A DNA stretch of 64,000 nucleotides, from assembly GCA_021018995.1 (NCBI GenBank), contig CM037587.1:70203604-70267603 (forward strand), written 5' to 3'. Numbering within the stretch: the stretch's first letter is position 1; every line of letters starts with the position of its first letter. Below are positions 1,641 to 32,480 of the stretch, piece by piece. A program made the translations under genes and the position numbers. The notes below the pieces were generated by a model, which was not told the DNA's origin, searched no databases, and worked only from the letters and a program-made list of their open reading frames with translations. The stretch comes from Chloranthus sessilifolius (taxonomy: Eukaryota > Streptophyta > Magnoliopsida > Chloranthales > Chloranthaceae).

Positions 1641-1815
1641 GTTGGATTATATATATCGCGAGGCTTGGCACGCTTTGAAATTATCTGCTCGCTGGATAGA
1701 AATGAGTGGGTCGTGAGATTGGACTTTCATTTGGATCGCGCGAGAGAGTCCACACAATTGTATTGAATCTCGCGACAGCTGAGCATGATAACATCTTATA
1801 AACAACGCGAGAAGA
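1641..1815 (-). promoter_or_regulatory. CGCGAG palindrome array plus TATA-like box upstream of the element 1 aORF
   Basis: About seven CGCGAG or CTCGCG-type motifs occur in 175 bp, for example tctcgcgaca, gatcgcgcgagag, acgcgagaag and tatcgcgagg. On the minus strand they are followed directly by TATATATAATCC (about 1648-1659). The candidate aORF start lies roughly 300 bases downstream. The same motif type is repeated in this element's LTR (5690-6310), also upstream of a TATA box. I infer an internal promoter modelled on the LTR promoter. Confidence 0.5.
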
Positions 1816-2234
1816 AACCATGCCTATTTTTTAACCTCATGACAAAAGCAGTCAAAAAATCACACACCCACTAGTCAGCCTTTGACCTTTGTTTTGTGGG
1901 TGGATTCTCTCATATGCTCTTGTCCAGGGACACCCTTAGTCATTCTAAACAGGACTCTCCATGCTTTCCCAACAATTAATCATACAATTACTAAAAAAGC
2001 ATTTAATCAAAACCTTATATCCAAAAAAAAACATTCTCATTATCAAAACAGTATAATCATCATTCATTCACTCAAAATCATCAATTCAAAGGGGACAAGA
2101 AGCAAAGCAGGCAGAAGAATTTTCAGGTCATATACACTCAGACTCCGACAAGATCACTAGAAATTCCTATAAACAGAAAAAAAAAAATGAACCATACTAA
2201 AATACATAACATACACAATGCACAGTTTTGTGAA
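1816..2234. other. Spacer between gag and aORF of element 1
   Basis: AT-rich and with no recognisable coding domain on either strand. Several A-runs are present (2023-2033, 2175-2186). No tRNA, terminal repeat or pol motif was seen. In element 2 this position holds protease, RT, RNase H and integrase, so here the pol block is not represented. Confidence 0.5.
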
Positions 2235-3820
2235 TCAATTTAATGAAAGTTCCCCCTGCCCCTCAAGGTTTGAGGATCCTTTACCAATCAAAAATTGGCC
2301 CTTGGGATTAACCACTGGCTGACTGGGCAACCTCCCTTCCTCTCTTTTAGCTAAGGCATTCGCTAGTTGGCCAATTTGCTCTTCCATCTTCTTTATGCTC
2401 TGACCATGAGAATTCACAGTCTGAGCCATGGACCCCAGGTTTTGCAGTGAGGTCATGACCTGGTCCTCGAAAGAAGTATTTCTGGGTTGAGATGGGGGTA
2501 AGACCAATTGATTTTGTTGCTGATGGGGCTGCTGCTGGTATTGGAAATTAGACCTAGGGGCATATCCCTGATTGAACTACTGTTGTGGCATTTGGGGTAA
2601 GGCCAACATTTGCTGGGGCTGCATGTAATTGTCTTGCCACCACCTCAGATTTGGGTGATCTCTCCATTGGTAACCAGCATTTTGGTGTTGGTATCCAAAT
2701 GGCTGTCTGTTGTAGCCACCAGATTGTTGCTGGCCAAAAGATTGTGCAGCAGCAGCATGCTTCAATATCAATTCAGGATATTACCCTGCAGATGGACATT
2801 CCTCTACTGTGTGCTGTGGGGACTGGCAGATGAGACATGCCTCCACCACTTGAGCAGCCCTTCTGGGTTGCATCACAGTCTGTAATTTGTCAAACTTCTC
2901 CGAGAGGTTTGCCATCTACAGCTGCAGGTCATTATTCCCGGACACCTCATAAACTTTTCCTCTTGACAATGCAGCAGGCCCACTATTGACACAGACTCCT
3001 GACTAGTTCTTGCCAGGGATAGCTTTTGAAAAGCATTTTCACTGATTACTTCAAACAATTCCCATGCCTCATCAGCAGTCTTGTGCATGTAGGTTCCACC
3101 ACAAGAGGCATCAACCATATCTCTATTTTTCTCATCAATCCCATTGTAGAAGCTTTGTACAAGCTGCCAGTCTGGGATTTTGTGGTGGGGGCATTGTTTG
3201 AGCATTTCCTTAACCCTATCCCAGGCTTGATTAAAATCCTCAGTTGGGGATTGGGCAAAAGCAAGAATTGCCTTCCTCAACTGGCTAGTTTTGGTCTCAG
3301 GGAAGAACTTTATCAGGAACTTGGTCTGTAGGTCTTTCCACGAAGTGATGCCATTGTTGGGAAGAGTGGCTAGCCAGGTACTAGCCCTATCCTTAAGAGA
3401 GAAGGGAAAGAGCCTGAGTCTAGTGGCCTCTGGTCCCAAACCAGCGATATTGAATGTGGTGCACAAGGCCAAAAATTGGTCAATATGCTTGTAAGGGTCT
3501 TCCTAGCTAAGCGCATGGAAAGAGGGCAGCATCTGGATGATTGAAGTTTTAATTTCATAATTCCCCTAAACATCAGAGAATTAAAAGCTAAATGGAGAGT
3601 TATAGTCATCTGGAGCATTCAACTCCTTGAGAGTTCTAGGTTGTTCTTCACCCATGACTACTGTCTTAGATTCAATTAGGGGCTCAACTGTGGTGTGCCT
3701 GTTCCTTCTAAGTCTTCCACCCCTTTCTATCTCAAGGTTGAAAGGCTCTAAAGTAGGACTAAGAGATCTCCTACCTAGCATACAAACACACCACCAGCAG
3801 GGACAACTCCTAGCAGGCAC
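2235..3820 (-). pseudogene. gag: gag region of element 1
   Basis: Encodes a Ty3/Gypsy capsid-type polyprotein of the Athila kind. It opens with MLGRRSLSPTLEPFNLE, very close to element 2's MLGRRSLNPEIAPLDLK. The capsid core follows (FNIAGLGPEATRLRLFPF, KDRASTWLATLP, WKDLQTKFLIKFFPETKTS, CPHHKIPDWQLVQSFYNGID). A Gln-rich C-terminal part comes next (about 2520-2800), then a short stretch with EEQIGQLANALAKREEGRLPSQP that is also seen in element 2. No CCHC knuckle is obvious, as is common in this lineage. The region is broken by several changes. Confidence 0.8.
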
Positions 3821-4115
3821 ATTGCACTTGACTCAAAGAATTTATCTAACAAATTTACAGCTATTTAAGAAAACATAAATTTACAACTATCCTAAATAAC
3901 TGCTATGGAATTTTCAAAGAAACTAGATTGAGTTTTAAAGGTTAGAGAATTACAAATAGAGGTAGCTAATCTCCAAATGCAGTCCACTGTCCTTCTCTGC
4001 TGCTGTCTAGATCTGCAAGAAAGATTCAAAATTACATCAGCAGTATCAATTATTCACTGCTACAAAGAATACTAAAAATACAAAAAAATAAGGGTCTACT
4101 AATAGATCATCTTAT
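3821..4115 (-). other. Untranslated leader of element 1
   Basis: Non-coding DNA between the PBS and the gag start, about 300 bp, AT-rich with no recognisable motif. It matches the position of the leader in element 2 (38246-38554), which shares phrases such as 'gatctgcaa' upstream of the PBS. Confidence 0.5.
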
Positions 4116-4133
4116 CCCCGGCAACGACGCCAA
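4116..4133 (-). other. Primer-binding site of element 1
   Basis: The minus strand reads TTGGCGTCGTTGCCGGGG five bases inside the LTR end. This matches the well-known TGGCGCCGTTGCCGGGG-type PBS of Athila-lineage elements (tRNA-Asp type) with one difference. It fixes the orientation of the element and the inner LTR boundary. Confidence 0.8.
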
Positions 4134-4599
4134 AAACTTGTTGCGAAATCCAATGTGCTTTCTTTATTTGTTGGTGGTAAAAGCAATTTAAAATCAAAGT
4201 TAAACAGGGGATGGAACCAACACAATCGAGAAATCCTAGACCTGCAAGATACAGGATCCATTTGTAGCAAGTTTTGATAAGTAAGAGTTTGTCCCACAGG
4301 GAAAAGGTGATCTACGGCTCCAAGGGAGCCATCTCTAGTAGTCCCTCCAGATCTGACTACAGATCTGGCAGTCCTAAAAGGAAGGGAGTTTAGGGTCACT
4401 TATTCTAAATATCCTAAGGTAGCCTAATGAATTAACTACAAAAAGGGTTGAGAAGATGGATGGACTGTGGGAAAATAAATATAAAAGGGTGAGAAGTATG
4501 CTATTGGGTTCAGATCTGCTGGAACTTATGACTCAGATCCGGGTCTGCTGTTATAGAAATCCTGTCCAATGGCTACATTATCACCAAAGAGGAGAAAGA

Positions 4600-5290
4600 A
4601 TGCAACTCATCCTTGTGCCATGATGCAATCCCTTAAGGTTATAACTTGTCCACTTAAATGGTTACAGACTATCCCATAGGGCAACCACTATCCAGAGATG
4701 GGTCAAAACAAGTTTATCATTGTAGGCACTACTTCATCCAGGCTACAAGCTCAGGAATCCATAGGGAACCTCAACCTCTAAAGCTCTATGTGTGGGGCTA
4801 GGGCTGTATAGGACCATGTTAGCCTAGACACATAAAACCAGCAAGAGATTGAGTACCACCTTTGATCTAGATGTCCATTGCTTTAGAGGAACTACAATGG
4901 TCCAGTCACAAGCCTACAATCTCCATACCCAGATCAGATCTACCATCTGATGGTGGGTCTATACTAATATAGGGGAGTCTGCCTCTGTACAATCTCCCAC
5001 AAAGCTACAAGCACATGTGCAGAGAAGAAGAATCCATCTTGGATCCTACGGATTGGCTTCACCCTAAGGCTATAGCCTTTCCACTTGAATGGTCACAGAC
5101 TATCCCAGAGGCTATCCTCCTCATAGAGTCTAAAATAGAACAGTAATATTGCTGCTACCACCATGGTCACAAGGCTACCAGCTTAGGCTCCCATGGGGAT
5201 TTCAGATCTAGTGGGTCCTGTGGTGGGGCTAAGGCTATATCGGACCATGATAGCCCAGACACACAGGTCACTTGGATATGAATGGATCCT
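4600..5290. repeat. Degenerate internal duplication in LTR 1
   Basis: Two diverged copies run in the same orientation. 4630-4870 (ccttaaggttataacttgtccacttaaatggttacagactatccca...gcccacacataaaacc region) parallels 5060-5270 (cctaaggctatagcctttccacttgaatggtcacagactatccca...gcccagacacacagg). Element 2's LTR has the same phrase at 26390-26440 and 39080-39130 (cctaaggctatgatctatccactaaaatggtcaca). It is therefore a conserved LTR segment that has doubled in element 1. Confidence 0.55.
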
Positions 5291-5689
5291 TAGAATCAGT
5301 CCTCCATTGCTTTGAATCACAGCCAAAGCAATGGCGGATCACAAGGCAGCAGCCTTGCACAGAGAAACTCATAAACACACAAATCCCATAAAAGTACAAC
5401 ACCCAACCACAACTTCCATTAATCTAATCTCAATAAACATACATAGGCATGGCCAGCAAGTGCTGGGCCATGGAGAGAAAGAAAAAGGAAAACTACTTAC
5501 AACTATAGAAGAACAGAAAAGAAAATGATCTCAGATCCCGTATCAGTGATAAAGTCCCCTCTAAACCTAAACCATGTTTGGGTTTATATAGCAGTGGTGT
5601 GGCAGCGCATTAGGGTTAGGAAACCCTAATTTTAATGATGCCACGTGGCCTATTAATGATCCTTGGATGACTCGAGGTGCGTGCACAAA

Positions 5690-6310
5690 GATTCGAGCGT
5701 GGGAGTGCATGCCCCAATCACTGAAAATCCCCAGAAAGTCCTCTGTTAAAGAGATGGAAGGTTAAAGTTCAAAGCTTTGCCAGGTTGCAATCGATTCCCA
5801 CACTTGTCGCGTGGTAGCACTGACTTCGTGAGGATGAGTTAGCATTAAAACTTCAGACGTTGCGGGGTTGCAGCTTCTTGATGCTTTGAGCAGTCCCGAG
5901 GTAGATAGTTAAGCTCTCGCTGGATTGGGCTTCGCGGAGTTGGATTGCTACTTGTGAATAGCGCGGGAACTGCGCGAGCATTTCATTTCACAATAGATCT
6001 TCACGAGGCTAACTCTGGCTTCGCGAGGCTGCTTTCTTCTTGAACAGCGCGAGAACTACGCGAGAAGTTTACTTCTTAATGGAACTTCGAGAGGATCCTC
6101 ACGAGGCTTTGATAGTTTCTGGACTGTGCGAGAGGTTCTCTTGACATTTGCATCCTGCGGCTACTGTGTGAGGCAGGATTCTGAAGCTAGTCTGTCACTC
6201 AACTGCGCAAGAAGTTGTTGTGAAGTCTTGAGAATTCGCGAGGACTGTGCGAAGCATATTTTTCTGAATCCTCTAAAGCTTTGGGAAGCTGCGCGAGGAT
6301 CTTCTCAGGT
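5690..6310 (-). repeat. CGCGAG-type palindromic motif array in LTR 1 (U3)
   Basis: A dozen or so variants of TCGCGAGG, GCGCGAGAA and TGCGCGAGC occur in about 600 bp, for example 5959-5980, 6018-6027, 6046-6068 and 6236-6256. Many are diverged by CG to TG or CA (tgtgcgagag, ctcacgagg). The array lies upstream of the LTR TATA box. The same motif recurs upstream of the aORF in this element and is absent from the other elements here except for isolated copies. Confidence 0.65.
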
Positions 6311-6492
6311 CTGGATTCAGTTCTCATTCTTCTGAGGGACTTCTGTGGTCAAAATAGGCTCCTTAGCAGGATTTATGGCCTTATTGCACTGCTGTTTATT
6401 ACCTACAGAAAATACTTAACAAACCTTTATTAGATGCCTAAGGGTCTAATCAAAGGCTAAGGGGTGAAAGTGGTACTTTTCAGCTCTTAACA

Positions 6493-7640: not shown

Positions 7641-7862
7641 AGCATTATCATCCCATAGGAACTCCAATCCCCTAGATGTTCCAGTAACATCGTGAATCTC
7701 TTGCAAAGGGACTTCTCTCTGTCCTCCTCTGCCTCCACTATATCCTCCTCTAAACTTTGGGCCCATAGTACCGGTCTGTCATTGTGTAAATAATAACATT
7801 GATCAATACTTAGATTGTGAAAATAATCCAACATGAACCCGTAGTTTAACCTAAAGCCTAGA

Positions 7863-7873
7863 CTCTGATACCA
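7863..7873 (-). other. Primer-binding site of element 3 (initiator Met tRNA)
   Basis: The minus strand reads TGGTATCAGAG, the classic complement of the 3' end of plant initiator methionine tRNA. It lies four bases inside the LTR end and gives the element's orientation and inner LTR border. Confidence 0.85.
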
Positions 7874-8140: not shown

Positions 8141-8282
8141 ATGGTTCCTATAGAATGTATAATAATACAAAGAACAACATCTATATCATAAATACAAAAA
8201 GTGGCCACCAGACCAAATAATCCAAAATACGAATACAAACCCCAAAAATACAACTAACTACCCAAGCTGCTAATTAAACTTG

Positions 8283-9840: not shown

Positions 9841-10063
9841 AGCTCCGGTGTGGAGCACCTACACTGCTTCTACGACGTACCCCACCCCATCAACGTCCTA
9901 CAAGACTCAGACTTACACACGAAGTCACACAAGACTTCATTTAACTATGGATTAATATTATTTGGTAATAATATTAATAATTTTTTTTAATTGGTCTCGA
10001 TTTTTATGACGGGCATGTTTATCGAAGCAGTCGAGTTCTTTTCAGAATTTTAGGGTCATTACA

Positions 10064-11023
10064 AGCCTGGCATGAAAATCGAGGCAAATTTAAAATTTAA
10101 TAATGATAATATTAATAATAATACCTTTTATCTGTAAGCACATGAAACCATAAGTCCAGTATGACATGTATCTGAAATCTGAGGAGCCACTTGATCGAAT
10201 GTGATACGCGTGAGTATGAGTATGTGCTCAACACCGGAGCAAAAGATTTGGGAAATAGAAATATCTTGGATATTTCTCATGGATAGCTTATAAGAGAAGG
10301 ATGTGGGTTAGGACTCTTTCCCTATTCCTTCTTCCCTATTTTTCTGGGAAATTGGTGCTAAGGGTTTGGGTTAGGATTTCATTATTTCACATTGGGTTCT
10401 AGAAGAACTCCGTTGTGATAACAAAGCTTGAAGAAGCTATAGACTCTAAATCTGGTGTGTGAAAGAGAGTGTGAATGTGTGGTGTTTAATCTAGAGGTGA
10501 ATGTGCTTTTGTGGGTTAGCGTGAAGTCACGCTTCTCATTTCAGGGATCATCAACAATGACCAAATCTCCAATTTCGGATCTGATGAACCGTCCTAAGTC
10601 AAAGGATGGACTTGGATCAAGGAATCGACATTAAAAAGGTGAGTTATTGTGTAATTGTAGGAGTTGAGATGTCATAAATATCTGTTAATTGTGACGTTGA
10701 ATGATTCGTGAAAAATCATAATGAGTTAGGGTTTAAATGGATTAAAAATCAATGATCTGCATTAATGATAGAGGATGTCATTTCCGATCAATCAAATTTA
10801 GTATTTGATCGATCAAATTATAATCCGATCAATCAGATTTGAGATTGATCGATCGAATTGTATAAAACCCCCCTTTGAAACAGAAGGGTGAAATTTTTAG
10901 AAGTTAAGGCCCGATATGCTCGATCGATCAAATTGGGAACTGATCGATCAAATTATAAGTGATCGATCAAGTTAGATAATAATGGATAAATTGAGAATTG
11001 ATCGATCGAAATTATAAGTGGTC
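10064..11023 (+). repeat. 5' LTR remnant of element A
   Basis: Matches 17866-18830 of the 3' LTR closely: tatctgtaagcacat, tgatacgcgtgagt, gctcaacaccggagc, and tgtataaaaccccccttt inside the palindrome array. Six GATCGATC cores remain. Its left edge abuts the LTR of element 3, which points the other way, so the two LTRs form a head-to-head pair. Confidence 0.8.
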
Positions 11024-14500: not shown

Positions 14501-15060
14501 TGGTTCGGTTGATCCGTGATAGATTGAGAGTTGCTCAAAGTCGTTAGAAAAGTTATGCCGATCTTCATCGAATGCAAGTCGAGTTTCAGGTATACTTGAT
14601 TCTGTTCAATACTTGCTCAATACTTTAGATTTCCTTGTCTGTGTATTAGCATAGAGTTAACACCTGTTTTCAGGTAGAAGATAAGGTTTTTGTCAAGATC
14701 TCGCCAACCAAGGGTGTAATGCATTTTGGGAAATGTGGAAAGCTAAGTTCTCATTACATTGAACCTTTTGAAGTGCTAGGTTGGGTTGGAGAAGTCGCGT
14801 ATCGGATTGCGTTGCCACCACAGTTGGCCAGCATGCATAATGTATTTCATGTTTCAATTCAGCACACATCCTGAATTTTAAGCCGATTGAACTTCAAGAG
14901 GATCTGACCTTGGTAGAAGAGCCTATGTAGATTCTAGATCGTAAGGAACAAGTATTACAGACTAAGATGATTCCACTTGTGCTAGTCAAGTGGCAGAATC
15001 ACTTTTCTGTGGACGCTACCTAGGGAGCGCAAAGTCAAAATTTGAGAGCAATACTTGCAT
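11586..15060 (+). pseudogene. pol: pol of element A (PR-RT-RNase H-IN, chromo-like tail)
   Basis: Domains follow the Ty3 order. Protease carries DPGSSHSF near 11668 and the following LGMNWLSAYYASVNC block. Reverse transcriptase runs from about 12220 to 13020 ([28 protein letters not shown], and the YxDD-equivalent [10 protein letters not shown] near 12690). RNase H runs from about 13070 to 13460 (the [10 protein letters not shown]-type block). Integrase runs from about 13612 to 14547, with an HHCC zinc domain (CLVCQQVK), a catalytic core (MDFILGLS, VCDRDPLYTSQFW, TDGQTERVNQSIEDMM) and RRCRSPLTWEEVG. Its C-terminal domain (about 14670-14870) includes PTKGVMHFG and MHNVFHVS. A weak chromodomain-like tail reaches about 15060. 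The region is broken, with many changes. Confidence 0.85.
14590..14673 (+). other. Intron-like segment inside the integrase region of element A
   Basis: This is 84 bp with GT at its start (cag/gtatacttg) and a pyrimidine-rich CAG at its end (cacctgttttcag). It has no integrase similarity, while the DNA on both sides does. Some plant chromoviruses are thought to carry small introns near the end of pol (from memory). Transcript support is not available here. Confidence 0.45.
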
Positions 15061-15266
15061 CTGTTTGACTGATATGCGAGGTAATTTTGATATTCAATTT
15101 AATTCGATATTATACTGCATCTTGGTTAAATAAATTGAGCAAATGTTAGATTAGTATACAACGCTTAACATAATGATATGACTGGACGGTTTAGCCGTTG
15201 GACTATGACGAAGCTTAGAGGTCCTTTAAACCTGAAATTTTTGCAAAACAGCCTTGCTGTGAAATC
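15061..15266. other. Spacer downstream of integrase, element A
   Basis: About 200 bp with no recognised motif. It leads into the palindrome array that precedes the aORF. Confidence 0.4.
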
Positions 15267-15645
15267 CGATCAATCAAAGTATGATTTGATCAATCAAACA
15301 CTTATCCGATCGATCAAACTAACAAGTTGATCAATCAACAATACTTTTTATTTAAGGACCTATTCGATCGATCAAAGGGAATATTTGATCGATCAAATGT
15401 GAATCCGATCGATCAAGCATAAAGATTGATCGATCAACTGACTTTAAACTGTGTGCTATTTTTGAACTAGTCCGATCGATCAATTGGACAAATTGATCGA
15501 TCAAATTTGAAATTTGAATGATCAATATAGGGATTGATCGATCAACCTATCGGGTTAGGATTTTTCATTTTCAAGTTCGATCGATTAATTAAGCATTGAT
15601 CGATCGAATTTATCATTTAAGTGGCACCTGGGTTTTAAAATAGCC
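15267..15645 (+). promoter_or_regulatory. Internal TTGATCGATCAA array upstream of the element A aORF
   Basis: About nine GATCGATC cores, with further GATCAATC variants, lie between 15267 and 15610. They alternate between ttgatcgatcaa and tccgatcgatcaa contexts, as in the LTRs of 3 and A. A TATA-like ttttaaaatag follows at about 15633. The aORF starts some 250 bases later. This array is not part of an LTR, because no LTR sequence flanks it. Confidence 0.75.
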
Positions 15646-15863: not shown

Positions 15864-17275
15864 ATGCGTCATGTAAAGTCCCTACGTTGCGGGCTCGTGT
15901 GCCCATGCCCCAAGTTGAACCGATCATACAACCTATTGTACAACTCGTGGCACCACCCATACCACCGGTGCCACCCGTTCAACAAGCCCAACCACCACTC
16001 ATCGAGCACGAATTGCCAAAAGAGTGGTGGAATCCCAAGACCTTTTTGCCCGAGCATGAGTTCACCTTGACTCTTTTTGACGATCGACCCAAAATGGCAT
16101 GGGTGATCAAGTACATCACCAACTTAGGGCTCAAACCCATGCACAAACCCTTTCATGACTATTATTGCTCAAGAATAGTACGACTATTCTACCAACACCT
16201 TAGACGGGGTGGTAACTGTCATCTAATGGTTACGAAAATCGATGGGTTGGAATACAAGTTCAACCAATTCCACGTCTTTGCTACCTTGCAATGCCCGCTC
16301 GAGTATGTGGAGATGTGTGGTTTGGCGGCACCCTACGTGAAGGATGTGCCCTTTGAGGACGTCAGCCCTAAGATGATGCATGGGCTTCAAGGATTGGGCC
16401 AATTGATCAAATGGGCCCAACTTCTCGACAATTTATGGATGCTTGATACCTACATCAAGTGTGCCATTTACCCATTTTTGTATTGATCTGAGAATACAAG
16501 TTTCATACAATAGTTCCTATTTTTGGCCTTTGAGAACCGTTGGTTCTCCATTTCCAACGTCGTCATTGATGGCATGCTTGACGCTGTCGAGAGGATGTTG
16601 GAGAAGAAGGCCATATCAAAGAAAGAGAGGCCATATGCCCGACTAATTACACGGATTGTAGAGCAATACAACGCCGTATGGGAGGTGTATAGTATGTCAC
16701 CGAGAGAACCAAGACGGAATGATAATATTAAGGTTTTGAAGCTCAAGGATTGGACCAAGACCTATAACCTTTTGGTGAAGAGGTTACCTGATAAGGAGGA
16801 GGTTCCACCAGTTGAGGCTGGAGCCGAGGCTGCTGAGCGAGCTCCAAATGTGGGAAAGGCACAGCCTGACCTTCCACCTCATCCTGAGGTCCCTGCTCGA
16901 CCGGCCCCCATTCCTCGACACCGACCTACTCGTGCTAGCACCGCACGCCATTTTGAACTCTCCTCCACCTCACTAGACAGTCTACTCGTCGTGATGAATG
17001 AAAACAACAAGCGGGTGCATGAAAGACTAGATGAGATGCAGGAGTTCCATCGTCAGGTGCATCGACGGTTGGATTTTCATGAGGGTATGCTTCTCCAGTT
17101 GACGCAGCAAGCGTACCCCACTACTACTACCCCCATGATTGGTCACGCTCGCCAGCATGTCACTGATCCACGGGACTACCGTATCGAGCCACCCAGACCC
17201 AGTCAACCAGACATACCTACGGAACCAGGTTCATCATCCGCTCCACCAGCAGGTGACTGCTATACTTGTATTTAA
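15864..17275 (+). pseudogene. aORF of element A with plant-transposon-protein-like domain and coiled coil
   Basis: Lies between integrase and the polypurine tract on the sense strand. A Pro-rich N-terminus (VPMPQVEPIIQPIVQ) precedes a globular domain with KEWWNPKTFLPEHEFTLTLF, SRIVRLFYQHLRRGGN, YKFNQFHVFATLQCPLEYVE and MLEKKAISKKERPYARLITR. It resembles the putative plant transposon protein domain (PF20167, from memory). A Pro-rich linker follows, then a heptad-like coiled coil (ENNKRVHERLDEMQEFHRQV, about 17000-17100) and a Pro/Ser tail. The aORF of element 1 shares the LFYQH domain and that of element 2 shares the Pro-rich plus coiled-coil layout. No nuclease or polymerase motif is seen, so a structural or DNA-binding role is only a guess. 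It is broken by few changes. Confidence 0.7.
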
Positions 17276-17819: not shown

Positions 17820-18587
17820 TGTAATGACCTTAAAATTTTGAAACTTTTGACTACTTTGGTATACATGCCTAGCATAGAGATCGAGGCAAATTTAAAATTT
17901 AATAATTAAAATATTAATAGCAATACCTTTTATCTGTAAGCACATAAAGCCATAAGTCAAGTATGACATGTATCTGAAATCTGAGGAGCTACTTGATCGA
18001 ATGTGATACGCGTGAGTCTGAGTATGTGCTCAACACCGGAGCAAAAGAGTTGGGAAATAGAAATATCCTAGATATTTCTCATGGATAGGTTATAAGAGAA
18101 GGAAGTGGGTTAGGACTCTTTCCCTATTCCTTCTTCCTTGTTTTTCTGGGAAATTGGGGCTAAGGGTTTGGGTTTAGGCTTTCATTATTTCACTTTGGGT
18201 TCCAAAAGAACTCTGTCGTGATAACAAAGCTCGAAGAAGCTATAGACTCGAAATCTGGTGTGTGAAAGTGAGTGTGAATGTGTGGTGTCTGATCTAGAGG
18301 TGATTGTGCTTCTGTGGGTTAGCGTGAAGTCACACTTCTCGTTCCGGGGATCATCAACAATGACCAAACCTCCAATTTCAGATCCGATGAACTGTCCTGA
18401 TTCGAAGGATTGACTTGGATCATGGAATCAACATTAAAGAGGTGAGTTATTGTGTAATTATAGGAGTTGAGATGTCATAAATACCTATTAATTGTGAGCT
18501 TGAATGATTCGTGGAGAATCATAATGAGTTATGTTTAAAATGGATTAAAAATTAACGATTTGCATTAATGACAGAGGATGTCATTTC

Positions 18588-19230
18588 TGATCGATTAAAT
18601 TTAGTATTTGATCGATCAAATTATAATCCGATTAATCAAATTTGAGATTGATCGATCGAATTGTATAAAACCCCCCTTTAAAACAGAAGGGTGAAATTTT
18701 TAGAAGTTATGGCCCGATATGCTCGATTGATCAAATTGGTGATTTGATCGATCAAATTAGAAACTGATCGATCAACTTATAAGTGATCGATCAAGTTAGA
18801 TAATGATCGATCAATTGAGAATTGATCGATCAAACTGTGAGAATGATCATCAAATCGAGGATTTGATCGATCAAATTTTATAAACACCCTATGAAATAGG
18901 AGGTGTGTTTTTATGAATTTTTGACTTTTGAAAATCTGATTGATGAAACATAAGGATTGATCGATCAAATTGAGGATCCGATCGATCAAATAGGGAATTG
19001 ATCGATCAGATTTCCTCTATTCTGTTTCTGTAAAATGTTGGTTTCCGATCGATCAAATATGAAATTGATCGATCAAACTATGAATCCGATCGATCAAACA
19101 TGGAGTTGATCGATCAGATTTATTTTGTTCTATTTGAATAGGAGTAAGGCATCCGATCGATCAAATGATGAGATTGAATGATCAGATATGAATCCAATCA
19201 ATCAAATAGAGAAATTGATTGATCGAATTC
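18588..19230 (+). repeat. TTGATCGATCAA palindrome array in LTR A
   Basis: About 16 GATCGATC cores occur in 640 bp, with variants such as gattaatc and gatcaatc. The sites alternate between (a)ttgatcgatcaa and tccgatcgatcaa in pairs, which gives a higher-order period of roughly 45 bp in places (19045-19120). Two TATA-like boxes lie inside the array. Confidence 0.9.
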
Positions 19231-19983
19231 CCATGTTTTATCTGTTTTGGTTTTATGGGAAAAACACTGTTGGGCAGTGTATCAAATTCTGTTCTGACAC
19301 TTTTGACACTTAAAACACTATGTATGGTCTAGGTCAAGACCAAAACACATTAAAACGTTTTAGATTTGGTTAGAAAGATCTGTTCTGAGATAGGGGAAAT
19401 TTAACTTAACTTGTATCTAATTTTGACTACATGGTCTCACAGCATCTGTGTCTGACTTATGTTGTTTCAAAAGCATACCATGCATATGATAAAGCTCTGT
19501 TATCTCTGATATCTATATCTATGCTCTACTCTAATTCCTAATATATGATCTGATTTAAAGTTCATGTGACGAATCCCCCTTACGTGGCAGGATATCCACG
19601 ACCGACACAACGGATATCCCTGTATCTGATTTGTAAACCCCCTGACACAAGTTGCTCTCCTTTGAAGAGGCTTGATGTAAATATCTGTAATTATTCATTG
19701 AACGACGATGGTTGGAGTTATCCATTGACACACATCTGGCTACCACGTGCTATATTCACGGGAGTTATTTAAGTATAAATTTTAAGTCACTAAATACTGT
19801 ATGCATGCATCTAAAAACTCTAAGGACATAGTCTATTTCTGATAATTCTGCATCTGTTATTTGAGTCATCTGTCTGCATCTATTCTGTTCTGTCTGCACT
19901 ATCTGATTTAATCATCTGTTCAGAGTTATGTTCTACAAACCATGTTTTACATTTTAGATTTAATTTACTTGAGTTTCTTCTAT

Positions 19984-20004
19984 TGAGCTTAGATGGTTAG
20001 CTCA
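19984..20004 (+). promoter_or_regulatory. AGCT-stem hairpin in LTR A
   Basis: TGAGCT, a 9-base loop, then AGCTCA. The same hairpin with a 9-base loop is found in LTR E (62429-62449), and a weaker form in LTR F (47216-47234). It precedes the acidic stretch. Confidence 0.5.
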
Positions 20005-20040
20005 CCCTGTTTCTATATAATAGGTTTTGAGGCTAGGGCT

Positions 20041-20133
20041 CCAAGCACGGAGAGTGATCCTGATTATCAGCCAAAGCCAGAGGCTGAGGAGGAGGAGGAT
20101 TCTGATATCCCTGTTGACGAGTTCTATCAGTAG
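20041..20133 (+). other. Acidic coding-like stretch in LTR A
   Basis: Reads as SDPDYQPKPEAEEEEDSDIP and onward, ending at a stop. Comparable acidic readings occur in LTRs 3, D, E and C. It may be a relic short ORF or an exon-like segment, since 'tataatag' just upstream resembles an acceptor. Confidence 0.4.
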
Positions 20134-20283
20134 TTAGGGTATTAGTTTTGTATTTTAGGTTCTGTACTTGTATTTTGGATTAACTGTGTGCCTGGTGGCC
20201 ACTTTTCTGTATTTACTTACTGTAGATATTTATTTATAGCATTATACATTCTATAGGAACCACTATTGGGAACTATTATTTTG

Positions 20284-20310
20284 AGTGATGGATGTCTATC
20301 ACCAGTGGTT
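20284..20310 (+). promoter_or_regulatory. Conserved terminal LTR hairpin (element A copy)
   Basis: gtgatggatgtctatcac followed by cagtggtt. The stem GTGAT/ATCAC and the trailing GTGG match the hairpins in LTRs D, E and F. It lies about 250 bp before the LTR end. Confidence 0.55.
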
Positions 20311-20536
20311 CTTCTTGGTTCCTTTTTGAGGATGCATATTCTTTTGATTTGCATAGATGTATTATTTTGTTCCTTTATTTTATTTTAGAGCCTTATATGA
20401 TGACTCAATCTGCCACTTCAGACAGTGTCTGCTCTAATTTTCGCTAAACAAGCAGGCACTCTTTGGTTGTTCCGGGAATCATCCAGAGTATGATCCTGAT
20501 GGCATGAGTTTTCGGGTGTGAAAATTTGGGCTGTCA

Positions 20537-20904
20537 CATTATTTCTCCCTCTTATAAGATCCTAGTCCTCTCCACTCATTACCGTTTCTAAATTTATCAA
20601 GAATGTGATCGGGTCCCCTTTGTAACTGTGGCGCCATTTTGTCACCATGTTGTTGTATGTAGAGCATAGGCCATGGTCAAGAAGAGATTCAACTGTTAGC
20701 TTGAATCCAAAAATCACATATCAGTGACATGGTCACCTGAATCGCCGAACTTTTGACAAAAAACAAAGTCACAATTAAATTGCTCTATTTTTGTTTATCA
20801 GATAAGTCGCATGAAGTAAGCGGCTGAGTTAGCCTAGCCTAACCTACTACAGCAGGCGAGCAAGTTAGCGAAGACGCTCAAGCTTAAATAAAGAAGAGCG
20901 TCGG
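20537..20904. other. Unassigned sequence between elements A and C
   Basis: About 370 bp with no coding domain and no terminal repeats that I can recognise. It may be older, decayed repeat DNA. Confidence 0.5.
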
Positions 20905-24059: not shown

Positions 24060-25878
24060 TCTATGTAATTGGAAAGCATGAGTTACCCGTAGATTTTATA
24101 GTACTCGGATTCCAAGACTGCGACATAAACCTCGATATGGATTGGTTAGCGGTTAATCATGCCTTAGTAGATTACTTTTCTAAAGTAGTCGTCTTCTGAC
24201 CTATTGGGAGCCCTTCGTTCAAATTTCATGGCATTAAAAGGGGAGGAACAACCTTACTTGTTACACTCGATAATGGTCGTGATGAGAAGTCGGATCCCTC
24301 AATTATTCCTATCATTGAAGATTTTGTCAATGTTTTTTCAGAAGAATTGCCTGGACTTCCTCCTGATTGAGAAATATAGTTTAAGATTGATCTTGCACCT
24401 GCTACCCTACCTATTGCATAGGTTCCATCCCGAATGACACTAGAAAAACTAAAGAGTTAGAGATTCAGTTACGAGAGTTGTTTGATAAGGGATTTATCCG
24501 ATGTAGTGATTCGTTATGGAGAGCATCAATTTTATTCGTAAAGAAGAAAGATGGTTCGATGAGACTTTGTATTGACTACTGATAGCTGAATAATGTGACC
24601 ATGAAAAATCGATACCCTCTTCCTCATATCAATGATGTATTTGACCAGCTACAGGGTGCTATTTACTTTTTGAAGATAGATCTTAGGTCCGAATACCACC
24701 AGTTGAAAGTCAGAGCAGAAGATATTTCAAAGACTGCTTTTAGGACAAGGCATGGACACTACAAATTCCTCGTTATGCCTTTTAGACTCACAAATGCACA
24801 GGATATGTTTATGGGCGTAATGAATTGTGTATTCAGAGAGTTTCTTGACAAGTTCTTCGTCGTGTTCATCGACGATGTCCTTATTTATTCTCGTTCGAAA
24901 GAAGCTCATAAGGACTACATTCGAATTGTGCTACAAACACTCCGTGAGCACAGGTTGTATGCGAAATTAAGCAAGTGTAAATTTTGGCTTGAGAATGTAG
25001 CTTTCTTTGTCATGTAATTTCTACCGCAGGGATTTATGTAGATCCATCAAAGATTGAAGTTATTACAAAGTGGCAAGCACCGAAGAATGTCACCATGGTG
25101 AGAAGTTTTCTCGGCTTAGCTGGGTATTATCGTAAATTTCTAGAAGAGTTCTCTCGTTTAGCACTCCCTCTTACTATGCTAATCTGTAAGAATAGTAAGT
25201 TTGTGTGGACAGATCAGTGCGAGTATAATTTTAATTTATTGAAGCAGAAACTCATGACAGCTCCCATACTCACCTTACCTTCTTGACTTAGTGATTATGA
25301 AGTTTACACGGATGCCTCGCGCCAGGGACTTAGGTGTCTGTTGGAACAATGTAAGAGAGCCATTGCCTATAGCTCGAGGTAGTGGAAAATACAGGAGAAG
25401 AACTATCTGGTTCATGATCTTGAATTAGCAGTGAATATCTTCACCCTAAAGATTTGGCGTCACTATCTATATGGTGAGACTTTCAAGATCTATACGGACC
25501 ATAAAAGCCTCAAATATTTATTCTATCAGAAAGATCTAAACTTGAGGCAGAGACGGTGGATGGGGTATATGAAGGACTATGACTGTTCGATTAATTACCA
25601 TTCGGGTAAAGAAAACATTATTGTTGATGATCTAAGTCAAAAATCCTCAGGATTGCTAGCACATCTAGAAGCTTGGAAGCTGCTAGATGAGATTGCTCAG
25701 TTAGATGTGCAACTTGATAGAATTGGAGAAGGAGCATATCTAGCTAGTAAGATGGTCAAACCTACCTTTGTTGACAGTATCAGAACCGAGCAGCTCTTAA
25801 ATCCCAAAGTTTCAAAGATTATAGGACAGTTAGTCGAGGTCCCTAAACACGGCTTTTCCATGTGTATTGATGAGATCT
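24060..25878 (+). pseudogene. pol: PR, RT and RNase H region of element C
   Basis: The protease end shows CDINLDMDWLAVNHALVDY (about 24120). RT carries [16 protein letters not shown]-type sequence, [31 protein letters not shown] and the active-site block [13 protein letters not shown] (about 24860). The thumb and RNase H follow ([51 protein letters not shown]). The end, up to element 2, is the start of the integrase region. No gag domain is recognised between the PBS and PR. It is broken by several changes. Confidence 0.8.
25874..25878. repeat. Target-site duplication of element 2, left copy
   Basis: gatct directly before the LTR start TGTTGTC. The right copy at 40880-40884 reads gatcc, a match at four of five bases. 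Both lie in element C integrase sequence. Confidence 0.75.
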
Positions 25879-28245
25879 TGTTGTCTTGCTTACCTTTCAA
25901 TTATTAAAGGGTTAAGACATCAAAATAGGAGGACAAAGTATAGAGGTATGGGCTCAAGGTAAGTAAGCAGTCTTGTAAAAACTAGGGCTGTTGCAGCAAG
26001 CTTTAAGAGATAAGTAAGGGTATTCCCATAGGGAAATGTGTTCTAAAATATAGTAAATCTCCAGATCTATAACAGATCTGGTACTCTAACCTATCTTAGT
26101 TTAAAACAAAGCAAAATCGGAGAGAGGAGAGGTTTCTAAGAGATGTAACTTTACTAAAAACTACAAAAATCAAATATAAAATGATCCAGAATTGATTAAA
26201 CTCATATTCAAGGGAATGAAAAAGATTAAAATCAAAGGTGGAGAGCAGCAGCTAGGGGTTTTGGTCTTTACTAAAAATCAATTGAATCAAAGGCAGTGCA
26301 TAGGACAGATTTGCAGCAATCCTTTATCTGGCTACAAGCTCAGATGCAAGGTAAAAGAATCCACTCTCAACCAAAGAATTGAAGTAGTCCTAAGGCTATG
26401 ATCTATCCACTAAAATGGTCACATATCATCTCAGAGATTGTTCCAATTCAAGGATATTGATTGAAATAGGTAAGCTATTGCAGATATTGTGGGTGCCAGA
26501 CTACAAGCTCAGGCATCCACAGGAATATCCAATCCAGGGAAATCAAATATGAAAAAGTAAAATATAGATCAGAATCACCTTTAAAAACTACAATTACATT
26601 GCAATAACACAACTTACAATCCTATTGTACTCAGATCTGTAATCTGGGCAACATACAATCCATCTATACAACCTCTGAAACTCTTGATTTACAGCTCCCA
26701 ACCTCACCCTAGCTACTAAAGAGGTTTAGCCAACCATAATTGGCTAAGGAGGGAATGGGGAAGAAGGGAGAGAGAGGGAACTTTTGGAGGGAAATGGAAA
26801 TCGGATTTGGCTCTGGTTCTCCCCCAATTTCTGGATGCTAGCTCTGTAAATTCTTCAAGCTTTTATACTCTTCTCCTCCCTTCACAGATCTGTTTTGGCC
26901 AATTAGAGCTCAAGAGAATAATTCTATTATTCTGAGCTGCTGATGTGACTGATTTCTCTTATAAATGCTCTTTTCCCATTGGTCCAAAACTAGTAGGCAC
27001 ATGTGATGTAGTTAGAGGGCTCCCATTCATGTGCATTTGTGTTCCAAAAATACCCCCAAGGGTCATTAACACTCCTTAAAACTCATGCGCAGAATTCTGA
27101 AGTTGGCAGCTGATGTGAAAGGAACTAAGAAGTTCACAATTCGAATGTCGAGAGGATCAGGGAACCTCTCGACAGGTTCTGAGACTGCTTGGTGTTCTCA
27201 TCGACAGGTTGAAGTGGCTTTCGATAGGTTTAGAGACTTCTCGAGAAGTTTAGCTAACTAGTCGACAGGATTGGAGTACATTTCTATCTTTTGTCCAGTT
27301 CTCCATTCATCCTCTCGAATGGTTATACAAAATCCTGTCAACTGCTTGTGAGGCTGAGTTGCACTAGTCGATAGGATTGAAGCCCGTTTTCACCTACTGT
27401 TTAGTCTCATTACATCCTCTCGACAGGTTATAGAAAATCCTGTCGACATCTTTGTAAAGCTCCTGTTGAGCTTTCGACAGGTTGGAAATAGCGCTCGACA
27501 GATTGCTTGAACCTCGCAAGGATGAGCGTAGCTTCAGGTAAGTTGTCGACAGGTTGCATTGCACTGCTCGACAGGTTCAATTGAACCTCTCGACTTCCCT
27601 TGTGCCTTCAGGTAAGGTGTCGACGGGATCCTTCACTACACTTCCAACCTCTCGATGGGATCTATCATCCTCTTCGACAGCTTAGCTTCTTTACCTTCTA
27701 ACCCCTCGACAGCTTAGCTTGTTTACCTTCTAACCCCTCGACAGGCTAGAGCACACTCTCTAATCCTCTTGATAGGTTCATGGAACCTCTCGATAACTTA
27801 ACTTTTGTCTCCAGAACCTCTCGACAGGTACTGGGAACCTCTCGACTTCTTAGAGTGTCCTCTTGAGATATTCTGCCTTGAGTTTCCACAGCTGGCACAC
27901 ATCTTTGGTATGCTTTTCTTCATTTTTTCACCACCCAGCAGACTCTTGGTGGGTTCAATCTTCATTCCTTGTAACTGCACTTAATACTAAGCATACCCAG
28001 TTGGGCCCATGAAATTCTCATGAACTTGCAAGGCTCTGTGGATTCTTTGATTGGCAGGCCTTTGCATTGTTTGAGCACATGTTGAGTAGTAGACTGCTTC
28101 TTTGGCCTTTTTAGATGGATGCTTGCATTAAGGCTGCAATTTATTGCTTATCTACAAAGCACATTAAAACACCTTATTAGTATGCTCAATGGTCCCTCAA
28201 AGGTCAGGTTAGGAGGTGAAAAATAGTATTTTTCACTGCTTAACA
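25879..28245 (-). repeat. 3' LTR of element 2
   Basis: About 2.37 kb, colinear with 38578-40879. On the minus strand it begins TGTTAAGCAGTG and ends with the complement of tgttgtc. TATA box: agcttttatactc on the plus strand (26857-26869), that is TATAAAAG on the minus strand. The GTCGAC array lies upstream of it in U3. Confidence 0.9.
27140..27860 (-). repeat. AACCTSTCGACAGGTT palindrome array in 3' LTR of element 2
   Basis: About twenty-five variants of cctctcgacaggtt or cctgtcgac occur over 720 bp. Good examples lie near 27165, 27425, 27470, 27545, 27575, 27735 and 27820. The full-length consensus is AACCTGTCGACAGGTT, palindromic around CG. Common variants replace CG by TG or CA. Confidence 0.9.
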
Positions 28246-28257
28246 CACCCTCAAACC
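28246..28257 (-). other. Polypurine tract of element 2
   Basis: The minus strand reads GGTTTGAGGGTG immediately before the LTR start TGTTAAGC. The purine-rich run is short but positioned as expected. Element H has an almost identical tract (GGTTTGCGGGTG). Confidence 0.7.
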
Positions 28258-30114
28258 TAAGCTTTGCTAGTCCCTGAGCAAAAGAGAAAGTAAAAACAAT
28301 TATTGAAAATGAAAAATGCTACTATTGTAGGGAGCACAAATGCATTTAGCAGATGCATAAAGCCGTTTGAACTACTAGGTGATTCCTAGTGGAGGAGTGA
28401 AGTCTCTTGAGTGTTTTCAGTGAAGGTACCCACAAACTTCTCCAATGACTCAGTTAGTACCAATGCAACATGTTAAAACAAAATTCAAGTAAAATCAAAT
28501 TCATTCCACACCTTGTTTATTCAATTTTAGAGGATTCTCAGCAGAAAATCAGCAGTTTAAAATTGAAACTCTGCTGTAATTCCTTCACAATCAATCAACT
28601 CATTTCAAGACATTTTGTATGAAAATCAATGCAGAGCTTGCCATCAAATTGAGAATTCGGTTTTAATAATGCCCCAACAAACCTAATTTCATACTCAAAT
28701 CTTACCAAGGTTGTCACTCACAATAAAAATAGAAGGGTGCATCATTTCACATAGCTCAAGAATAGTTACAGCCCTCAAATAATACTGCAAGCATGAGCAT
28801 AGGCATTGCTCTAATTTATGAAATTTTCTAACTCTTTTCACCATAGATTAAATAAATCCTCATCTCTATATGACAGCTCAATCCATTTTAGATCAGAAAG
28901 GTCTTTTTATTGGGTTGTAATGTGGCTTATGGGTGAGGTTTATGAAGGATAAAGGGTAAGGAAAGCTTCAAAATTGAGAAATCAGTAAGGTAAGGAGGTG
29001 ACATGTACACCTTCTTCAATTCAGCACAAGCTTCATCTTTGAATTTTCAGAATTGAAGTGATCAATTTCCAATCCTCATTTCAATGTATCCAATGAAGTG
29101 ACTTCTCTCTTATTTTTATTTTGCTTTTCTGTTTCTTTTTTTTTCTATATTTTTTTTTCAATATTTTTGTATTTTCTGATGGGCTAGAATGCCACAACTG
29201 CCACCAACTGTGTTTCCTTCTCTTCCAACCAAATATCAAACCTTGCTCCTCTAACCTCACTTCTCCTTCTATTTCCTGAATTCTCAGATTGATGGTGAAT
29301 TGAACTAGGTCAAGGGGTTTTGGGTTCAAATTTTTTGGTTTTTATCAAAGAAAAACTGAGATTTTTAAGGCTCAAATGGTGTGTATCAAGGGCAGTTCAA
29401 AGGTGAGAATTTTTAGGATCAAAGTGTCCAAAGGATGGCCCTACTTCATGTCCTCAATGTCATGAATGCTGTCAAGCTATTTCAACTTGGATTTGCCCAA
29501 CTTCTAGTGAGCAAAGTAGATTCAATCAGTCCTTTGAGCAGAAAAATTGCCAAAATACTCTTCAAAGAAAAATTATTCAGGTCCAAATCTCACTGGGTAT
29601 GATCTTTCATGAAATTTTTGGGGGATATCCTCACAATTTTCTCTCTTCAAGTTCACTAAGCATCAAATTTGTTTTTGAAAATTCCTGACATTTGTTTTAT
29701 GACAATGTTAAAGCTATAGCAATGTTCAGTTTTAAAAAGTTTTATAAATTTCCTCTTTTTCAAAAATTAGGTAGGACTTTACTTTATTTTCACAAATTTT
29801 ATTCAATCATAGTTGTATTAACATTAACTATCCCATTGGCACACTCTTCCATACCCTCAAACCTATGAGGAGCAGTGTCCTCACTGATTTAAAGATAAAG
29901 TGCATGTGCAGCAAGGTAGAATCAAATACAAAACAAAGTAAGTAACAACATCAAACAAGGCACACACAAATAATTAAAACACACAAAAAACAAACATAAA
30001 GACAAAGTAAATCACACAAAATATACTAAAGAGAAATTTCTTTCATAACACAAAAATTTGTGCAATGCAAAGGCAAATAACTACAAAAAGAATATACACA
30101 AACACCCTAACTAA
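28258..30114 (-). other. 3' untranslated region of element 2
   Basis: 1.86 kb without a recognisable coding domain; AT-rich. The first 220 bases are conserved in element H (42981-43200), including gggagcacaaatgcatttagc and taggtgattcctagtggagga, and so are the 28840-28930 phrases (tcagaaaggtcttttt.tgggttgtaatgtgg). Conservation between families suggests a functional 3' UTR or packaging signal. Confidence 0.6.
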
Positions 30115-31738
30115 TTAGATGTTGAAATCTAGTCTTGGACTCCTTTTCCTTTTTCTTTCTTCGAAGCAGCAAGGTGAAGTGGTTGGTGGGGTAGTCTTAG
30201 TTGCTTGTGTAGGCTCTCTGGCAGCCATTTCAACAACTCTCTTTTCTAGTATTTCTGCCTTCTTTTTAGCAAGTTGAACTCTAGTTTCATACAATTCTCT
30301 GGAGGCCCTTGTGACCTCTTTGGAGGCAGCTAACCTCTTCTCAAGTCCATCAGCTCTTAATTTCTCTGTTGCTGCTGTATTCTTCTCAAATTGAATCCAA
30401 ATTTCTTGCGAGTCATTTGATATTCTCTGCCTCTCTATTTTGTGATCCAGTTGCATTTGATGTATCTGTGCGTCATAGGGCATTCAGATTGAGGTTCTGA
30501 GGTCAGCCATGGCTCCGATGACATCCCTTTTAAGGTATGAGTTTTGTTGTATGACATGGAAGAGGGTAAAGTATGGAGGTATGGAAAAGAAAAAGGTAGG
30601 TACTATGGGCTGCTCAGCACTGGAAGAAGAGATGGATGATGGACTGGGTGGGGTGGAGATTGAGGGTAAAGGGTGAAGGACTTTAAGTTCAGGCTTAGGG
30701 TCAGTTTGGGTTGAAATGGAGGTGGGGATTAGGTTGTCCACATCTATGGCAGCATTGGTAAAGGTAGGAGGAGGGATATATGGAATGGGTTTAGTGGGTG
30801 AAGTGGCAGGTGTGGTGGCAGCTAGGGTTAAGGGTTGGGGGGGGGTATGGATGGGTGTAGGGGTAGGGATTGGTTGTTCCACCTCAGTAGTGGAAACCAC
30901 TGCTAAAGGAGATGGAGGTGGTGTGGGTAAAGGAGTAGGTGTAGGAGTAAGGACTGGAAGAGGTTGGCTGGTTAAGGTGGAAGGGATGAGGGTGGACTGA
31001 ATGGCCTGAAGGCAAGTGGCCATAGCAGCTTGGTTGGCTATGTTTGTTTGAAGCTGGGCAAGGATGGTGGTAAGAAGGGAAAGGATTTGGGTAGAGGCCT
31101 TAGGTAGGACTTGGGCTTAGGTAATAGGTGAAATGAGGTTAATGGGGTGGAAGGGAGATGTGGGGGCATGCTGAAAAGGTGGGGTGGGTGTAGACTGGAA
31201 ATGGGTAGGTTGTGGGGAGTCAGGTAGGGGGTATATTCATACCCAATGTCTCCCACAATGGAGTCAATTAGGGATGAATATCCCTTAGTGGTTAGGTGGT
31301 CCTAGGTATGTGGAGGTGAGATGGAAAAGGTAGGATCAAAGTCAAAGGGAATGGATGGTGGAGAAGTGGTAAGAGGGGTGATGGAAGGTGCAGGGCTGAA
31401 AGGTTCAGCAACTAATATGGATGGTCTAGTTGGAGGTAAGGTAGGGATGGGGTCTATGGTAAGAAGAGTAACTGACAGAGGTGTGGATGTAGTGATGGTT
31501 GAAAGGGTGGCTAAGCTGCTAGGGGGGATAGAAACTGAGATGGAAGGTATGGCAGGGGAGGGGATGGGGAGGCTGGCATTAGTGGAGCTAATCACAGGCA
31601 CAGGTACAGCAGTGGAAGGAATGAATAAGGGGTTTCCTTGGGCTATGTAGCTAGCCTACCGAATTTTCTAGTGGTTTTGGTGGCGGATGTAGAAGGGGCT
31701 TTGAAAAGCTTGGGAAGGGTATCCTCTTGGTCAGCCAT
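30115..31738 (-). pseudogene. aORF of element 2: Pro/Ser/Thr-rich protein with C-terminal coiled coil
   Basis: Sits between integrase and the 3' UTR on the sense strand. It begins MADQEDTLPKLFKAPST near 31738. A long low-complexity Pro/Ser/Thr region follows (TPTPTPLPTPPPSP-type repeats). A short hydrophobic segment (TFFFSIPPYFTLFHVIQQNS) comes next, then a charged coiled coil (HKIERQRISNDSQEIWIQFE; EKLRADGLEKRLAASKE; RVQLAKKKAEILEKRV). It ends with a basic tail (EERKRKRSPRL). The LFYQH domain of the element 1 and A aORFs is not recognisable. The basic tail could be a nuclear localisation signal. The function is unknown, and the aORF is broken. Confidence 0.6.
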
Positions 31739-32049
31739 TATACACTCAATCCACACAAATTATATTTCAACAATTCACAAAAATCCTCTGTTTCCCAAAT
31801 GAATTACCACACAAACTTATAATAAAAGTATTGAGCTTGGAAATCACAAAGTAAAGATGAAGGAAAACTTACCCATAGAAAACCTAGGGTTTTCAGATCT
31901 TGATGTGCACGACACCAAATTGGCAGAGACTAGGTGTAAAATGTAGCCCTTGAGGAATTAAAGCAAATGGAACAATGGCTGAGTGATTGGAGTAGACACC
32001 CGTGAGGTAGAGGAAGAAGAAAGAAAATTGAAATTGGCGGAGAGAAAAT
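31739..32049 (-). other. Leader between the palindrome array and aORF of element 2
   Basis: About 310 bp, pyrimidine-rich on the minus strand, with no coding domain. No clear TATA box was found, unlike element 1. Confidence 0.45.
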
Positions 32050-32480
32050 AAAGCTCAGAGACAAGCTGTCGAATGGCTGAATTGAGTTGTCAATAGGTTT
32101 AAAACAATGAAATTTGAGTTTTGACAGGATTGGGGGCAAGGTGTTGACAAGTTGATACAACTTGTCGAATAGTGAAAAGCAGCTAAATGTCTCGAGAGGT
32201 TCACTCAATCTTGTCGACGGGTTCAAGGCTTCAGAAAAATTCACTTCGAGAGGTTCACAAAACCTCTCGACAGGTACTCTAAACCTGTCGACAATGCACC
32301 CAAAAACCTTCAGAACCTGTTGACAAGTTTATAGATCCTATCGACAATCATATTTACACCTTCAGAACCTGTTGAGAATTGACTCAAACCTCTCGACAGG
32401 TCCCAAATCTTATCGAAAAGCATATTGAGAACCTTCAAAACCTGTCGAAATGTTCTCCACGCCTCTCGACAGGCAGTTTC
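32050..32480 (-). promoter_or_regulatory. Internal GTCGAC palindrome array upstream of the element 2 aORF
   Basis: About 14 sites occur in 430 bp: aacctctcgacaggtac (32260-32277), aaacctgtcgacaatg (32281-32297), cctctcgacaggtcc (32389-32403), cctctcgacaggcag (32462-32476), and variants such as cctgttgacaagt. The consensus is that of the LTR array of the same element. The array lies between the integrase end and the aORF and is not flanked by LTR sequence. Confidence 0.85.

Follow-up and report, generated by a model that had tools for sequence, protein, structure and literature searches.

The window analysed here is a stretch of 64,000 nucleotides of the Chloranthus sessilifolius genome (C4:70203604-70267603 of the 2.17-Gb genome, contig CM037587.1), and window positions are used throughout. 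Three of its long terminal repeat (LTR) retrotransposons, elements 1, 2, and A, have an additional open reading frame (aORF). As shown in Table 1, an array of short palindromic sites lies between the coding part (gag in element 1; the integrase in elements 2 and A) and the aORF of each element, outside the LTRs, and a further array is found in the LTRs. Element A has a chromodomain-type pol end near position 15020. The two LTRs of element 2 are 90-92% identical. In element 1, gag alone was matched; no match to the protease, reverse transcriptase, or integrase of element 2 was found between its LTRs. Thus, element 1 looks non-autonomous. From typical features and with no tree, I take elements 1 and 2 to be Athila, and element A and its relative family C (described below) to be Tekay.

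Palindrome arrays in the LTRs and upstream of the aORFs

Sites were counted with at most two mismatches to the family motif, and shuffled sequence served as the background. In element A, whose motif is TTGATCGATCAA, 13 sites were found in 15260-15615 (0.4 in shuffles) and 19 in the 3′ LTR (0.6 in shuffles). The element 1 and element 2 motifs have no site in either region, while cross-matches to the related motifs of families C and T number 1 and 5 in the internal array and 4 and 1 in the LTR. In element 2, there are 8 internal sites (0.0 in shuffles) and 12 sites in the 3′ LTR (0.1), and none for the motif of any other family in either region. Element 1 is the weakest case. Its 12-mer has 2 sites in the internal array and no site in the LTR; at the same setting, 1 site of the family C motif was counted in the LTR. 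The core CGCGAG/CTCGCG occurs 4 times in 190 bp of internal sequence (0.16 expected), 6 times in each LTR (0.13-0.16 expected), and not at all in the gag stretch. A chance origin of the arrays was ruled out by these counts and by the retention of the arrays in relatives. The initial annotation had placed an array 5′ of the aORF in all three elements, outside the LTRs, and with the motif of the element's own LTR. All of this was borne out: the site counts exceed the shuffles or the expectation, the LTR limits put the arrays between the coding part and the aORF, and elements A and 2 lack each other's motif, while element 1 agrees with its LTR by the core only.

Table 1. Elements, arrays, and aORFs in and beside the window (window positions; negative numbers lie to the left of the window)
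Feature	Position	Strand	Remark
Element 1, whole	-6413 to 6492	-	LTRs of ~2.36 kb each
Element 1, 5′ LTR	4136..6492	-	CGCGAG sites at 5973-6297
Element 1, partner LTR	-6413 to -4052	-	left of the window; 94.4% identical to the 5′ LTR
Element 1, gag region	2238..3799	-	matched part 62% identical to the gag of element 2
Element 1, internal palindrome array	1656..1815	-	TCTCGCGAGA type; 4 core sites
Element 1, TATATATAAT	1646..1656	-	immediately past the final site of the array; likely a TATA box for an aORF promoter; in the 8 copies examined
Element 1, aORF	644..1354	-	236 amino acids here; weak PF20167 match
Element A, 5′ LTR piece	10060..11010	+	contains GATCGATC sites
Element A, internal array	15267..15610	+	13 TTGATCGATCAA-like sites, mostly spaced by 19-21 bp
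Element A, aORF	15887..17275	+	broken after 16486; open again from 16523
Element A, 3′ LTR	~17830..20537	+	array at 18588-19230; start by eye, end by self-comparison
Element 2, 3′ LTR	25877..28252	-	CCTGTCGACAGG/CCTCTCGAGAGG array at ~27165-27830
Element 2, aORF region	30484..31740	-	in my reading, without the PF20167-like part that relatives keep
Element 2, internal array	32050..32480	-	8 sites at ≤2 mismatches
Element 2, integrase (rve)	32925..33707	-	profile match
Element 2, 5′ LTR	38576..40886	-	carries the array of the 3′ LTR too

Retention of the arrays among relatives

Copies of element A were picked by their aORF at every second place, that is, 20 of the 39 other listed places. Of these relatives, 18 have the internal array, and 8-15 sites fall within the last 650 bp before the aORF. 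Absence of the array from most relatives, which the initial annotation had named as a refutation, is therefore not what element A shows. An LTR array, taken as 11 or more sites in the segment counted, is present in 14 of 20. The initial annotation had anticipated two peaks, one in the LTR and the other upstream of the aORF, and both occur together in 13 of 20. As for background regions, the aORF has 0-2 sites and pol has 0-1, with L013 and L031 as the exceptions. The internal array of L013 is displaced by a nested LTR, and the array stretch of L030 appears to be deleted. The copies below the LTR threshold are L015 and L030, which hold nested family C LTRs, L022, whose sites lie nearer the aORF, and L023, L024, and L028. 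By eye, the nested LTR of L013, directly upstream of the aORF start, bears another palindrome of the TCGTTCGAACGA type.

The copies of element 1 were retrieved via the array itself, and thus the presence of the array in 8 of 8 copies is by construction. All 8 have a TATATATAATCC stretch past the array, and each has part of the aORF frame (an open reading frame of at least 150 amino acids). For element 2, three diverged relatives were fetched out of 39 other scored candidates. All three have the internal array and two have the LTR array; in these two relatives, the LTR and the internal array share one motif. The fetched stretch of the third relative (C12) has no LTR array and, by eye, contains the end of another LTR and a primer-site-like sequence. 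The fetched loci contain 22 chromodomain ends, 21 of which are followed by an aORF match (that of L013 behind the nested LTR); the remaining one, at window position 42069, is soon followed by another LTR. This count is uninformative as an aORF-less control, and it is biased because nearly all the loci were fetched by the aORF.

Constraint on the sites

The window copy of element A served to define the motif columns, which were then compared among its other copies (L013, L022, and L030 were excluded and, for the LTRs, also L015, L023, L024, and L028). In the internal array, the pairwise difference is 0.091 at the sites, 0.274 in the spacers, and 0.268 outside. The corresponding values for the LTR are 0.168, 0.249, and 0.280. 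Within the internal sites, the half-site cores GAT/ATC vary least (0.01-0.09) and the central CpG varies most (0.21-0.23). CpG retention in the motif compared with other CpGs is 0.73 versus 0.53 in the internal array and 0.68 versus 0.42 in the LTR, in sites called in the very copies compared and with the exclusions just listed. The internal arrays of A, C, 1, and 2 were also compared with their LTRs after masking the sites, and no DNA similarity was found (best E 0.16). Thus, only the sites are common to both places, not the flanking sequence.

Motif switching between families

Family C LTRs, in which TCGATTAATCGA replaces TTGATCGATCAA, are nested in two element A loci and were seen before the internal region of family C. 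This internal region, fetched beyond one such LTR, has a pol end related to that of element A (integrase, Tf2-type SH3, and chromodomain), followed by 21 sites of the family's own motif and then an aORF. The element A motif has no site in this array. The aORF proteins of C and A are 39% identical, while the array and LTR regions of the two families have no detectable DNA similarity. Thus, related families with homologous aORFs differ in their family-specific motifs, and the co-variation of the motif between the two peaks that had been predicted was found: the LTR motif of family C recurs upstream of its own aORF.

Two further families were found at loci with a PF20167 domain. Of the 12 loci read, 5 have the family S motif, CACGGACGTCCGTG, upstream of the PF20167 gene. 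The following LTR was read in two cases, and in both it has this motif ahead of a TATA-like stretch. In family T, the internal arrays have GTCGATTAATCGAC or GTCGATGCATCGAC and the LTR has GTCGATCGATCGAC. One family T locus (L054:2476-2733) has a second open reading frame (86 amino acids, no Pfam match) that is preceded by a palindrome array of its own and a TATA-like stretch.

Spacing and TATA-like elements

Neighbouring sites are most often 20-22 bp apart in families A, C, S, T, and 2, a distance equal to two helical turns; the p-values of the spacing are inflated by the relatedness of the copies. This common spacing suggests one type of pairwise binding despite the different motifs.

A TATA-like element lies past the internal array in 8 of 8 element 1 copies and at several other loci. 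No canonical TATA box was found past the internal array in the element A copies, nor past 4 of 4 element 2 arrays. For the LTR arrays, a TATA-like match within 260 bp was found in elements 1 and C, in both S LTRs, and in the 3′ LTR of element 2. No such match was found in 11 of the 14 fetched A LTRs, the window A LTR, two other element 2 LTRs, or family T. A TATA element after every array was therefore dropped as a general feature, being not uniform across families. It had been suggested that the aORF has its own promoter under the regulator of the LTR. This suggestion is supported by the position and the constraint of the array, the switch in family C, the lack of homology between the internal array and the LTR, and the TATA-like elements of element 1 and several other loci. 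The further suggestion, that the aORF product may itself be the regulator, is at most plausible.

The aORF proteins

The five aORF proteins of A, C, 1, and 2 are similar in all pairs (BLASTP, 25-80% identity, E 2e-11 or better), and the aORF of the element 2 relatives is 38% identical to that of element 1. Matches to the PF20167 profile (cut-off 45 bits) were obtained for A relatives (40.6, 30.6, and 18.7 bits), for C (28.9), and for element 1 (29.8). All scores for window element 1 and the relatives of 1, A, and C, from 18.7 to 40.6 bits, are below the cut-off. The halves of the window element A aORF and two element 2 relatives gave no PF20167 match. In an element 1 relative (L007), the aORF is 399 amino acids long and stays open up to the end of the locus. 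Inspection of the alignment by eye shows basic stretches resembling nuclear localisation signals near the N terminus of the aORF proteins of elements 1 and 2. In element A, the ratio of nonsynonymous to synonymous substitutions (dN/dS; L013 excluded) is 0.20 in frame versus 0.89 and 1.22 in the other frames, indicating that the aORF is under purifying selection. In the protein collection, 0 of 735 candidates was a homologue at E ≤ 0.001, and 0 of 40 matched stretches in viral contigs was confirmed.

In the genome, 13,855 first-look candidates for PF20167 were obtained, and the 150 that were scored are all above the cut-off. I examined 12 of these 150, picked non-randomly for diversity. A palindrome array lies within 1.25 kb upstream of the domain in 9 of the 12 (by k-mer table and eye); one of these nine arrays is inside an LTR, beside a primer-site-like sequence. 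In L049, an LTR-like stretch and a TGGTATCAGAGCC primer-site-like sequence precede the PF20167 match, so that the aORF may be the first gene; GTGGTTAACCAC-like sites lie upstream (by eye). In L041 and L043, by eye, the matches lie behind a copia-like pol or gag and have no upstream array; the open frame of L043 is 772 amino acids long.

Other palindromic sequences in the window

Some other stretches of the window have palindromes as well. By eye, an LTR of another family at 42660-42730 has a ATCTCGACCGGTCGAGAT palindrome. A ATTATACG/CGTATAAT cluster lies at 45800-46260, with up to 9 in 700 bp and the consensus ATTATACGCGTATAAT by eye. At 51340-51470 and 57510-57610, the LTRs of yet another family have, by eye, decayed TTGCCGCGGCAA-like sites, and the integrase end of this family seems to be cut. 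Repeated AGTGTA...TACACT stretches lie ahead of a likely LTR end at 58430-58690 (by eye).

Comparison with known systems

The initial annotation knew of no such layout in plant LTR elements. This point has to be withdrawn, because Sirevirus ENV genes have it. According to the accessible text of Bousios et al. 2010 (PMC2829016), Sireviruses (Ty1/copia) have element-specific palindromic repeated motifs in the LTR upstream of the TATA box, with a CGG-CCG core in 12 of 13 motifs. Copies of the motif also lie upstream of ENV in 9 ENV-bearing elements, and the 4 without ENV have none there. The present elements likewise have an own-motif palindrome array in the LTR plus copies just upstream of an extra gene. 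Thus, the layout, published for another superfamily, is not new in kind. The differences from the Sireviruses described there are that the window elements are Ty3/gypsy (chromodomain-bearing in A and C), that the downstream gene is PF20167-related, and that the motifs of A, C, 1, and 2 have no CGG-CCG core. The family S motif CACGGACGTCCGTG does have this core. No such layout in Ty3/gypsy elements, and no PF20167 gene with palindromes, was found among the matches listed in the open-licence literature. The new points here are the Ty3/gypsy occurrence, the PF20167 link, the motif switching, and the pair spacing.

Motif binding has been demonstrated for VANC (Hosaka et al. 2017, PMC5735166), the proteins by which VANDAL elements counteract silencing. 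As far as the available part of that report goes, the likeness lies in family-specific short motifs arrayed in non-coding DNA, which in the case of VANC change together with an element-encoded regulator. On the other hand, VANDAL is a DNA transposon whose motifs are in one orientation. Extra genes between pol and the 3′ LTR are also found in Grande (PMC7264820), where gene23 reportedly has a promoter of its own and encodes a nuclear product, and in Retand, whose TRP28 is predicted to bind DNA (PMC11963269). These genes differ in being antisense and in having another domain, and the available parts of both reports mention no palindrome common to the LTR and the internal region. The sunflower Athila aORF has Transposase_32 (PF20167) and is predicted to be nuclear, with VANDAL anti-silencing drawn as an analogy, while the sunflower Tekay aORF is 5′ and has no known domain (PMC11728184). 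Unlike here, no motif arrays are described in the accessible part of that report.

Possible mechanism and alternative explanations

The motifs common to both places, their position, the constraint on them, their switching between families, and the homology of the aORFs were observed here. These suggest protein binding and promoter activity at the arrays. Each array would be a set of candidate binding sites for a dimeric, sequence-specific DNA-binding protein. This factor may act at two promoters, one in the LTR (U3) and the other an internal promoter transcribing the aORF, and its family-specific motif would change in the LTR and the internal array together. Taken as a whole, the sequence data are best explained by one DNA-binding factor per family controlling both promoters, which I consider fairly probable. 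The likeliest factor is the aORF product itself: the motif tracks the aORF family, different motifs precede homologous genes, and element 1 has retained both gene and array although pol was not matched there. This identification is plausible, with the chances close to balanced. If so, the PF20167-type product would form an autoregulatory loop, raising its own synthesis as well as LTR activity. A bolder step, by analogy to VANC of VANDAL DNA transposons, is that the CpG-containing sites are kept free of silencing; I regard such an anti-silencing role as rather unlikely.

Several findings weigh against this best explanation as a whole. Element 1 is without the 20-22 bp spacing, its sites in copy L002 being ~27-36 and 55 bp apart. 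Helical phasing of the longer gaps is seen in element 2 (R 0.72, excluding gaps of 18-23 bp) and not in element A (R 0.03). Since phasing of all gaps holds in the former and not in the latter, only the pair spacing of 20-22 bp is claimed. In family S, one LTR has a single site at the strict threshold and 3-4 by eye. The LTR and internal motifs of family T agree in the half-site alone, and families C and T are not independent because their motifs overlap. The element A copy L031 has 12 extra TTGATCGATCAA-like sites at its upstream edge, in the stretch counted as pol. The upstream array is absent in 3 of the 12 PF20167 loci. The dN/dS of the element 1 aORF is 0.62 (0.58 and 0.89 in the other frames), not distinct from that of one shifted frame. 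A single-sequence AlphaFold2 model was unusable (pLDDT, the predicted local distance difference test, 41). Finally, Table 3 of PMC2829016 indicates that 4 of 13 Sireviruses lack ENV and still carry LTR palindromes; thus, an LTR array does not require an aORF in cis.

The last point also fits a serious rival, namely that host transcription factors bind the palindromes and that both promoters are tuned to one host factor, different in each family. Host factors have been proposed for the Sirevirus motifs in connection with stress-related sites, so far as the available text of PMC2829016 shows, and all the promoter evidence presented here fits them equally well. However, at least four different motifs (A, C/T, S, and 2) have the 20-22 bp pair spacing in common and precede related or PF20167-matching aORFs. 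In addition, the internal copies of Sireviruses go with ENV (9 of 9) and are absent without it (0 of 4) in the elements reported there. I take the host-factor explanation seriously and yet judge it unlikely. The arrays might otherwise act as nucleic-acid structure, or as sources or targets of small RNAs, rather than as protein sites. The LTR palindrome clusters of maize Sireviruses indeed concentrate small RNAs (Bousios 2016, as cited in the accessible text of PMC10760457), but such mapping may reflect a host response compatible with protein binding. The spacing near two helical turns, with constrained half-sites and free spacers, suggests double-stranded binding sites, and the placement ahead of TATA-like elements in several families fits promoters; this alternative seems improbable. 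The motif, identical at both places, would also be expected if the internal array were a nonfunctional piece of the element's own LTR, displaced or converted. This origin was rejected because there is no similarity outside the sites in four families. The regular position ahead of the aORF and the constraint on the sites among copies disfavour it further, and it is hardly credible.

Returning to the aORF product as the factor, I tentatively extend this reading to the PF20167-type aORFs in general, with somewhat less confidence than for the window elements. These aORFs, including some plant 'envelope-like' open reading frames, may be family-specific DNA-binding regulators and not envelopes. Their targets would be phased palindromes in the LTR and in the promoter of the aORF itself, which would make them autoregulatory and possibly anti-silencing. 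The gene and its sites would thus form a module in chromoviruses, Athila-type elements, and probably copia elements, in which the protein and the palindrome co-evolve.

Among the aORFs and 'env-like' genes of plant LTR retrotransposons, which have no settled function, a gene with the same fast-changing and constrained palindrome in its own promoter and in the LTR is a directly testable candidate for an element-encoded transcription regulator. If this is true, VANC-like self-regulation would extend from DNA transposons to the retrotransposons that form much of large plant genomes.

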